Shown here one piece after another: positions 7,672-22,576 of a stretch of DNA of 34,011 nt. A program made the position numbers and the translations under genes. The stretch is from Candidatus Bipolaricaulota bacterium (GTDB lineage: Bacteria; Bipolaricaulota; Bipolaricaulia; UBA7950; UBA9294), in NCBI GenBank assembly GCA_030670905.1, contig DAOVAR010000005.1:1-34011 (forward strand), read 5' to 3'. Each line of letters opens with the position of its first letter. The first letter of the stretch is position 1. Under the pieces are notes generated by a model. That model saw only the letters and a list, made by a program, of their open reading frames with translations. It did not search any database and was not told the DNA's origin.

Positions 7672-8029
7672 TGGTGGAGGTGGCGGGATTTGAACCCGCG
7701 TCCGAAGATAGCGCCACTTAGCATCTACAAGCTTAGAGTCGTATTTTAAGTTTGGTCAATACCCTCCTACGACCAGGATGATATCTACCTAGCTTCCGAA
7801 GATTCATCGTGTCCGCGGGAAGCACGGGACGCGATATACCCGCTTTTGTGACGCCTGATTGAAGCTTGCGGGCAGCTCCAGCAGACGGCCGCCTAGTTTA
7901 AACTATAGGCAGGAACAGAAAATGCGTAGTTGTTTTCCGCATTTAATTGTTTATTCGCTGGTTTTAGGAGATAGCGAATGCTCCGCTTGCAGCCTTGCTT
8001 TACTAACTCCGTCGAATCCATTCACCCCC
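7672..8029 (-). ncRNA. ssrA: transfer-messenger RNA (tmRNA)
   Basis: Releases stalled ribosomes and adds a degradation tag. The 5' end GGGGGTGAATGGATTCGACGG is the classic tmRNA start. The 3' end has a T-arm GCGGGTTCAAATCCCGC and an encoded CCA. The 5' GGGGGUG pairs over 7 bp with CACCUCC before ACCA. Pseudoknot PK1 is visible: GGAG/CTCC interleaved with ATTCGCT/AGCGAAT. Twelve nucleotides after it, as in E. coli, comes the resume codon in TTAAAT-GCG. The tag frame reads AENNYAFSVPAYSLN then TAG (7940 to 7893). The start is standard but the -SLN end is unusual; see findings. Total 358 nt. Confidence 0.96.
7893..7940 (-). other. ssrA: tmRNA tag reading frame
   Basis: GCG GAA AAC AAC TAC GCA ... 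AAC TAG, 15 residues plus stop. The frame is fixed by its distance from PK1 and by the conserved ENNYA start. The stop lies within the near-palindrome CCTATAGTTTAAACTAGG, which would form helix 5 with a bulged UA. Confidence 0.75.
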
Positions 8030-19684: not shown

Positions 19685-22213
19685 TTAATTCAACTTAAGG
19701 GCCAAAATCTTTGAAACTCCATGCTTCATTGTTACTCCGTAGGCTCGGTCTGCATGGCGAATTGTTTCATTATTGTGTGAGACAATGATCACCTGGATAC
19801 GCTCGGCGTAGTATCGCAACATCCGCGCGAGTCGCGTGATGTTTACGAGATCTAGTGCGGCGTCGATCTCGTCCAGAATGAAGAGCGGCGCTTGCTGATA
19901 TTCCTGCAAGGCGAAGATGAACGCTGTCGCAACCAAGGTCTGTTCTCCGCCAGATAGTGAATCAATTAAGTGTGGTTCCTTGTCTGGTGGGTTTGCTTTG
20001 ATCAGGAGTCCCGACTTGATATTCTCTGGCTCTTCAAGTTCTAGTGACGCGGTGCCACCTTCGAACAACTCATGGAAGATACGTTCAAAATGCTCATTGA
20101 TCTGCGCCAGAGTGGAAAGGAAGAGCTCTTTCTTGCGCTGTTCAATCTGGCCGATGAGCATTTCTATCTCGTGTTTTTCAGTCTGAAGGGCGGTTACACG
20201 TTCGCTAAGTAGGTTGAATTCCTGTTCATAGGCTTTGCACTCGTCGATTGCCCGCATATTTATTGGTTCCAATCTGCGGAGGTCTTTCATATTCTTTTGG
20301 GCTAGTTGCTCCAGTTGTCTTAGGGAGTCATTGGCATAGTAAGAATCATCTTGTTCCTGTTTTCCAAAGGCTTCCAATTCTGCACGTGCCTGTGCTTCGT
20401 CGCGCTCGTAACGTGTAAGACCACGTCGCATGTTTTCCAACTGACGATACGTTTCTCGGCGCTTGTCGCGCAATGCGCGCAGATCGTCACTGCGTGTGGC
20501 TGTTTCGCCCTTTGCCAGGGTGGATTCTTGTTGCTGTCTGGAGAGTTCCTGCTCTTTGCGCTGGAGCTCGTCAGTCAGCTCCTCGATCTTCTCCTCTAGG
20601 TCGCTGATCTCTCTTCCTATCTTGGAAATTTGCTGACGCTTTCGTGCCGCATCAAAAGTTGAATCTGCGGGTACTCTTGTCCCTGGTCTCTCTTTCTTTG
20701 TGCCTATTCGGGAGCCACCAGTGAGCGCTCCTCCCTTACTCTGCAAGTCACCGTCCAGGGTTACTGCGCGTACTCCATCGATATCTCGTAGCGCTTCAAG
20801 GTTTTCACAGACTACTGTATCGTACAGTACATACTCAAGTGCACGGCGGTATTTGGGATCAAAATCAACGAGATTGATCGCGTAATCGATAAGTCCTGGT
20901 AGCTTAAGGGCATCGGCCGAGGCAAGGGTTTTAGGTCGTGTGACTAGCCTGCGTAATGGGAGGATGCGTACACGGCCAAGATGATTCTCCTTCAGATAGT
21001 TGATGCAGTTGATTGCTGTCTCACGTGAGTCAACAACGATGTCGTTCAGGTGACCCGCGGCTGCTGTCTGAAAAGGTATCTCGAAACCGGAATTGGGTGT
21101 TGCGATTGACGCAATGGTTCCGTAGACTCCGCTACGCTTTAGCTCAAGTATGGCTTGCACGGCACCACTGCGTTTAGCTGCTGTTTTGTTCCGTGCCTCT
21201 TCGGCGGCTTTGATTCGCGTTACTTCATCTATCATCTGGTGGAGATTGGCGGCTTGCTGGCGTTTGAGATCGATCTCCCCCTGCTTTCGTGAGATTTCCG
21301 ATCGCAGATGCTCAACTTCCTTGATCAGATCGATTCGTCCGTCGCTCTGCAGCCCTTCTCGAACGCTCTCAAGTTCCCATTCCTTATTCTCAATTTGGAG
21401 ATCAAGCTTCTCTACATCTTCCTGCAAGGTCCCTATGCGTCCTGAAAATTGAGCGCATTCCTTTTCGGAGAGAAGAAGTTTTTCCTCAGCTTTCTTTCGC
21501 TTCAAATGTCGGATGGATGCTTGTAAGCGATCCAGTTCTTGAGTCATGCGTTGATATTCCAGTGCCGCATCCCGTTCCCGTGAAAGAGAGAGTAATCGCT
21601 GCCGCCGTTCCGCCAAGATGATTCGGTGGGTATTTAGCTTAGATTTTACTTCCTTGAGTTCGACGATTGCCTTATTTCGTTTCTCGTCATAGGCGGCAAT
21701 ACCACAGATGTCATCGATGATTTGGCGACGTGTTGCCGCATTGTCTCTTATCACTTTGGTGAGTGCTCCCTGGGCGATCAGCTGCTGTCCATCGGGGTCT
21801 ATTTTTGCCTGTACCAATACTTGGTCAACCATTGCTCGCGAGCAAGGCTTACCCATGAAATAGTAGGAAGAAGAGCCATGACTGATACGACGACCGATAG
21901 TGATCTCTGGTGGGGAATCACCATTTGCAAGGAGCTGATCGAATAGATGATTGGTGTTGCTAAGATGAAGAATAACTTCGGCGGCTTGAGCAGGAGAGTA
22001 TTTCTCTCCACCATTGAAAATCAGGTGTTCCATTCTGTCGGATCGTAACTGTGAAGATCTCCTTCCCATAACGAAACTGATAGCGTCAAAGAGATTTGAT
22101 TTCCCAGCGCCGTTTTCTCCAATAATAGCGGTCAGACCGTCGAAGAATGGGACTACTGTCTTCTTGCGAAAGGATTTGAACCCCGTGAGAGCCACGCGAT
22201 TGATTCGTGTCAT
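19685..22213 (-). CDS. smc: short-armed SMC chromosome condensin ATPase
   Basis: SMC dimers use ATP to extrude DNA loops. N-terminal head: VALTGFKSFRKK, Walker A GENGAGKSN, FNGGEKYSPAQAAEV. Coiled coil 1 is only about 190 residues by hand count. The hinge begins near SGVYGTIASI and ends at SKGGALTGGSR. Coiled coil 2 follows, then the C-head with signature LSGGEQTL, Walker B LFILDEIDAALD and a switch His (VIIVSHN). Total 842 aa from ATG 22213, against about 1150-1190 for typical bacterial SMC; the loss is in both arms while head and hinge are intact. The track start adds 17 upstream residues that do not fit the family. First gene of the operon with scpA and scpB, so it is the true condensin and not a stray SbcC or RecN. 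Confidence 0.94.
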   Translation of the reverse strand: MTRINRVALTGFKSFRKKTVVPFFDGLTAIIGENGAGKSNLFDAISFVMGRRSSQLRSDRMEHLIFNGGEKYSPAQAAEVILHLSNTNHLFDQLLANGDSPPEITIGRRISHGSSSYYFMGKPCSRAMVDQVLVQAKIDPDGQQLIAQGALTKVIRDNAATRRQIIDDICGIAAYDEKRNKAIVELKEVKSKLNTHRIILAERRQRLLSLSRERDAALEYQRMTQELDRLQASIRHLKRKKAEEKLLLSEKECAQFSGRIGTLQEDVEKLDLQIENKEWELESVREGLQSDGRIDLIKEVEHLRSEISRKQGEIDLKRQQAANLHQMIDEVTRIKAAEEARNKTAAKRSGAVQAILELKRSGVYGTIASIATPNSGFEIPFQTAAAGHLNDIVVDSRETAINCINYLKENHLGRVRILPLRRLVTRPKTLASADALKLPGLIDYAINLVDFDPKYRRALEYVLYDTVVCENLEALRDIDGVRAVTLDGDLQSKGGALTGGSRIGTKKERPGTRVPADSTFDAARKRQQISKIGREISDLEEKIEELTDELQRKEQELSRQQQESTLAKGETATRSDDLRALRDKRRETYRQLENMRRGLTRYERDEAQARAELEAFGKQEQDDSYYANDSLRQLEQLAQKNMKDLRRLEPINMRAIDECKAYEQEFNLLSERVTALQTEKHEIEMLIGQIEQRKKELFLSTLAQINEHFERIFHELFEGGTASLELEEPENIKSGLLIKANPPDKEPHLIDSLSGGEQTLVATAFIFALQEYQQAPLFILDEIDAALDLVNITRLARMLRYYAERIQVIIVSHNNETIRHADRAYGVTMKHGVSKILALKLN

Positions 22214-22576
22214 CGCCCAACAATCCTTTTCTGCATGCTTGGTGAATAGGTTTGAGTGATACATTTGTGTGCCATGACCAGCTTACTCCATCCTTATACT
22301 AGTCGAAAACGCCGCAGCCGCTCTCGTAGATTGTTCATAGTGATTGTACTCCGAGTAGTCTACTGGCAAAGCTTCTGTTACACAACAAAGCATAGGACAA
22401 GAGCATCGCATTCCATACCCTGTGATGTTTCTTTCGTGGCCCAAATAATGAGGGACAACAACAAGAATCTCGCAGCGCACACATCACTGTTTCTCCTTGG
22501 TAGATACACTTATCCCACAAGGTTAATAGTAGAGATGTAGACACCACTCCAAAGGACGTGTAGACGGGGAGCACAG

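Follow-up and report, generated by a model that had tools for sequence, protein, structure and literature searches.

The stretch of DNA analysed here (34,011 nucleotides from a Candidatus Bipolaricaulota bacterium, contig DAOVAR010000005.1, referred to as the window) includes a tmRNA gene whose tag ends in Ser-Leu-Asn. ClpX recognises the terminal Ala-Ala of ssrA tags and, to our knowledge, the -LAA end and ClpXP are regarded as a near-universal pair with one well-known exception, the Mollicutes, which are parasites with small genomes. The locus raises the question of whether its ending is a genuine feature of the lineage or the product of a damaged or misread gene and, if genuine, which protease would read it.

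The tmRNA gene (ssrA; 7672..8029, minus strand) is a complete, one-piece gene with an encoded CCA, and ARAGORN and Rfam agree on its extent (8029..7672). The match to RF00023 runs over the full length of the model (positions 1-374) with a score of 186.6 bits (E 9.5e-75; gathering score 47), and no other match in the genome (1.16 Mb) exceeds the Rfam cut-off. The acceptor stem, GGGGGUG/CACCUCC (GGGGGUG ... CACCUCCACCA; read by eye), contains the G3-U70 pair and the CCA end that alanylation of the tRNA-like domain calls for, and alanylation and tagging are predicted. A gene for SmpB is found in the same genome (G000:C30:14594-15019; 176.6 bits to TIGR00086). Judged from its sequence, the window tmRNA is a normal, working gene with no sign of a dead gene. 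The RNA family, the Ala resume codon and the SmpB partner are shared with the canonical tmRNA (RF00023; E. coli tag AANDENYALAA), as are the start of the tag, A-[N/D/E]...YA-, and its length. However, Bipolaricaulota tags end in -[S/A][L/Y]N rather than in Ala-Ala, and ClpX is absent from the phylum (see below).

The tag frame with its stop, AENNYAFSVPAYSLN*, is at 7893..7940 (minus strand). It was identified by ARAGORN, matches the frame of relatives, and had been read correctly at 7940-7893 in the initial annotation. The codons are GCG GAA AAC AAC TAC GCA TTT TCT GTT CCT GCC TAT AGT TTA AAC TAG, which encode AENNYAFSVPAYSLN. The resume codon, GCG (Ala; 7938..7940, minus strand), is of a type, GCG/GCC, that is found in 73/73 of the tags in the phylum that end in Asn. 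The conserved tag end, AGT TTA AAC TAG (Ser-Leu-Asn-stop; 7893..7904, minus strand), was defined from the sequence and its relatives. In the ViennaRNA fold, the tag end and stop codon lie in the helix 5 hairpin (7889..7912, minus strand), with 7 pairs and a ten-base loop predicted.

Tags were taken from all above-cut-off tmRNAs in 100 Bipolaricaulota genomes, and wrong ARAGORN frames (e.g. those of L010, L016, L022, L026 and L028) were corrected manually, starting at the conserved resume codon. Among the 77 readable tmRNAs, 73 have a tag that ends in [Ser/Ala/Cys]-[Leu/Tyr/Val]-Asn, namely SLN (35), ALN (30), SYN (3), AYN (3), CLN (1) and CVN (1). The CVN copy (G028) looks degenerate, and without it the count is 72/76. 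The 73 tags span seven families (f1-f5, f7 and f8) and represent 37 distinct peptides, such as ADYAFAAPSLN, ADYATVPAYALN, ANNFAFATASLN and ANTTTATYAFAAPSYN. When the same pipeline was applied to an outgroup (Clostridia, Nitrospirae, Deltaproteobacteria and others that matched ValS), an -AA end was found in 25/25 readable tags and the phylum-type end in 0/25. The unusual Leu-Asn end is almost certainly real and common to almost the whole phylum.

The exceptions are found in families f6 and f9. Tags of f6 are 24-30 residues long and end in -GTLA, -GAFA or -APVG; those at L033, L041 and L042 (e.g. ANDKLATAFGGIGNATGEFSNSTVAAGTLA) are two to three times the usual tag length and have a hydrophobic or Gly end. 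The f9 tag ends in -SLS, and hand reading of L152 (G096) gives GNELAFAAPSLS, with a Gly resume codon and Ser replacing the terminal Asn. When a ValS tree is rooted on other bacteria, the first branch is f8, with the tag ANDFALAAPALN (-ALN), and the remaining families, including f6, group with 98 % SH-aLRT support (83 % for the root branch). As f8 branches first, the -LN end is probably ancestral in Bipolaricaulota and was probably lost in f6. Searches of open papers returned nothing relevant on these endings or on tmRNA in Bipolaricaulota; the tmRNA Website tag list lay outside this search and may list such tags.

The initial annotation had suggested that the copy is mutated or misread, with a TA inserted into a tag meant to end in -SVPA. 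The observation behind this proposal holds, in that deletion of one TA does give the perfect palindrome CCTAGTTTAAACTAGG and the -SVPA end, and the resulting hairpin is also stabler (-13.2 kcal/mol, vs -8.1 kcal/mol as found; ViennaRNA). However, three species of the same genus have a tag of equal frame and length. The sequence GCC TAT AGT TTA AAC TAG is identical in two of them (G002 and G003), and the third (G001) has GCA TCT AGT TTA AAC TAG, which is equal in length and differs from the window by TAT to TCT and GCC to GCA. As these changes are substitutions, they point to neither an indel nor a sequencing slip. Two of the three congeners are the independent public assemblies CSMAG_1235 and CSMAG_2486, Candidatus Bipolaricaulota MAGs whose ValS is, respectively, 94 % and 90 % identical to that of the window, and for which ARAGORN reports the tags AENNYAFSVPAYSLN and AEDNYAFSVPASSLN. 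Asn also follows a hydrophobic residue in every family other than f6 and f9. An insertion, assembly error or misreading can be practically dismissed: resume codon, frame and length all match in the ssrA genes of close relatives, and the altered tag is real.

A conserved tag end could also be the by-product of a conserved RNA, if the stop-codon loop (NAACUA) were kept for tmRNA folding or for contacts with SmpB or the ribosome and Leu-Asn had no role in degradation. The tag end does sit within helix 5, and the AACU core is almost unvarying, the Asn codon being AAC in 69 of the 73 tags and the first base of the stop codon always T. This near-invariance indicates that some of the constraint could act on the RNA loop. 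However, Leu is encoded by all six of its codons among the 73 tags, and is also swapped to Tyr (TAT) through three base changes. Ser moves between TCN and AGY, both AAC and AAT are found for Asn, and all three stop codons are in use (TAG 46, TAA 20, TGA 7). The use of six Leu codons, both Ser families and three stops argues that the peptide itself is conserved. Pairing and loop size vary among families, and f9 carries AGC (Ser) at the Asn position. Among the 60 different sequences, premature stops are found in 0/60 in the tag frame and in 48/60 and 11/60 in the other frames, and mean identity is 0.50 in frame vs 0.36 and 0.35 out of frame. Across the last three codons of these sequences, variation peaks at third positions, and the one-base codon neighbours found there are synonymous in 18 cases and non-synonymous in 4. 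We consider it unlikely that the RNA is what is conserved.

Bipolaricaulota lack ClpX. No match to TIGR00382 (ClpX) above the cut-off was found in 60 Bipolaricaulota genomes, 28 of which are at least 90 % complete; the same model detected ClpX in 10 of 14 controls, the 14 including four archaea. The ClpX zinc-binding domain (PF06689) was found in 0/100 genomes of the phylum vs 10/10 bacterial controls. SmpB is present in 28/28 of the near-complete genomes. In the genome of the window (G000) and in G036 and G039, tig is followed by clpP, and clpX is absent beyond clpP where the contig continues. A search for an unusual ClpX, as suggested in the initial annotation, led to rejection of that candidate, as the weak ClpX-like matches are FtsH and HslU, the latter scoring 583.8 bits to TIGR00390 in G000. 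The window tag, ending in Ser-Leu-Asn in a genome with no ClpX for reading it, is not a degron of the -LAA, ClpXP type. Family f6 is likewise without ClpX, yet has the -GTLA, -GAFA and -APVG ends; loss of ClpX thus permits a new end and does not dictate which.

The -[S/A]LN peptide kept phylum-wide and the missing ClpX support the other proposal of the initial annotation, namely that the degradation signal of this lineage is a different one. On this evidence, the tag probably carries, in -[Ser/Ala]-Leu-Asn, a C-terminal degradation signal that is specific to the lineage and read without ClpX (a probability of roughly 0.7). As ClpX is lost, stalled proteins are probably cleared by a different protease. 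A true ClpP (>170 bits) was found in 51/60 genomes (hand count) and also in G000, where clpP (L264) is cut by the contig end. ClpC with a ClpP-docking loop (LGF, VGF or IGF) is present in f1-f7, and the loop of the G000 ClpC (L271) is LGF. A second Clp ATPase, nearest to ClpB or ClpG, has no docking loop. The gene set of G000, with ClpP and a looped ClpC, is that expected for a degron read by ClpC-ClpP, and such reading is proposed here. A gene for a REP-associated tyrosine transposase adjoins clpC in G000 (L271:4801-5298).

Reading by HslUV or LonA has in its favour that HslV is above the cut-off in 52/60 genomes and that the Mollicutes tag is read by Lon (PMC9382460). The distribution of both is patchy, however. 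HslU is missing from genus g16 of f4, where the tag is still -ALN. LonA was detected in 9/60 genomes, limited to f3, f5, f7 and f8; it was not found in f1, f2, f4 or f6 among the 60 genomes, nor above the cut-off in G000. Neither can be the shared reader, and both were rejected as such; that one of them is the new reader is very unlikely. In g16, hslV without hslU, i.e. a peptidase subunit that lacks its usual ATPase partner, was observed at L262:2459-2992 (G036), and is followed by a putative threonyl-tRNA synthetase gene (by eye). In G000, FtsH is present together with a LonB/LonC-like S16 protease that retains its Ser and Lys motifs. This 802-residue protein (L272:7185-9593), which has an AAA_32 domain, is found in place of LonA. 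With HslU and LonA patchy, the candidates for a shared reader of the -LN end are ClpC-ClpP, FtsH and the LonB-like protease. Among these, ClpC-ClpP would be the most likely, as no other ClpP machine has a docking loop in all seven families examined for the loop, and we tentatively propose it as the main reader. FtsH or the LonB/LonC-like S16 protease would be possible readers in its place.

Trans-translation in this phylum may alternatively only free the ribosome, with a tag that is no longer a degradation signal and an end that drifts or serves solubility or stop-codon recognition. Rescue and tagging are separable functions in Helicobacter and others. The Asn end is polar, the readers named above are candidates by inference, and other proteins show no visible avoidance of -LN, although the few proteins counted give this comparison no power: 2 -LN C-termini were seen in 787 kb of G000 vs 1.8-2.5 expected, and 1 in 400 kb of G013 vs 0.4-0.5 expected. 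However, an unselected tag would not hold [S/A][L/Y]N in 37 peptides from seven families, and we regard loss of the degradation role as quite unlikely. An SMC-like protein encoded in the window (19685-22264) has the C-terminus -LALKLN, indicating that a normal protein tolerates -LN alone as its last two residues.

Because it is the terminal Ala-Ala that ClpX reads, the tag and its reader seem to have undergone a joint change, of a kind known from Mollicutes. Once ClpX was gone, the Ala-Ala end, which is what ClpX grips, would no longer be imposed on the tag. The tag would then come under selection from another AAA+ unfoldase, most likely ClpC, and its end would settle on [S/A]-[L/Y]-N. The fuller scenario, which we put at slightly less than even odds, is that ClpX was lost at or near the root of the phylum and that tmRNA quality control was rebuilt on a -[S/A]-[L/Y]-Asn degron, read by ClpC-ClpP, FtsH or the LonB-like protease via a pocket for the terminal Asn.

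Two departures from the usual tag end have been described that resemble the one found here in part. Most tags end in LAA, and in Mollicutes without active ClpXP the end is NYAFA and Lon is the reader (PMC9382460). Bipolaricaulota and Mollicutes (Mesoplasma florum, NYAFA) thus share a changed tag end in a lineage without active ClpXP. However, the -FA end of Mollicutes is small and hydrophobic, whereas here the last residue is the polar Asn, and the lineage of the window is without LonA and has kept ClpP and ClpC. Neither feature of the Mollicutes type, the NYAFA end or LonA above the cut-off, is found in G000, where the tag ends in -SLN. Polar tag ends are rare, and Carsonella is the sole species described with a charged one (PMC4131195). 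Its tags end in Lys and also have a polar last residue, but belong to a decaying, strain-variable gene in the tiny genome of a symbiont, whereas here the tmRNA is intact and the tag end conserved across the free-living phylum.

Bipolaricaulota are a free-living candidate phylum in which both halves of the pair are altered, the reader being gone and the tag end being different but strictly conserved. What sets the sequence of an ssrA degron becomes testable through comparison, with f6, which has no ClpX and another tag, as a natural contrast. An orthogonal pair of tag and protease would also serve synthetic biology.

Some further tmRNA loci were observed in the genomes searched. L055 (G022) and L056 (G028) are degenerate or partial tmRNA-like copies for which ARAGORN gives no call. 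A second, very different tmRNA with the tag ANDNASVLALVA is found in G059 (L054; G059:C123), the main tmRNA of which is of the -SLN type; the second copy may be contamination or a mobile element. The tmRNA coordinates in MAG Dive96_bin10.340, titled Neomarinimicrobiota, are those of the Bipolaricaulota genome G088, and the tag is ANYASVPAVALN. The two appear to be one genome, and the Neomarinimicrobiota title appears to be a mislabelling.
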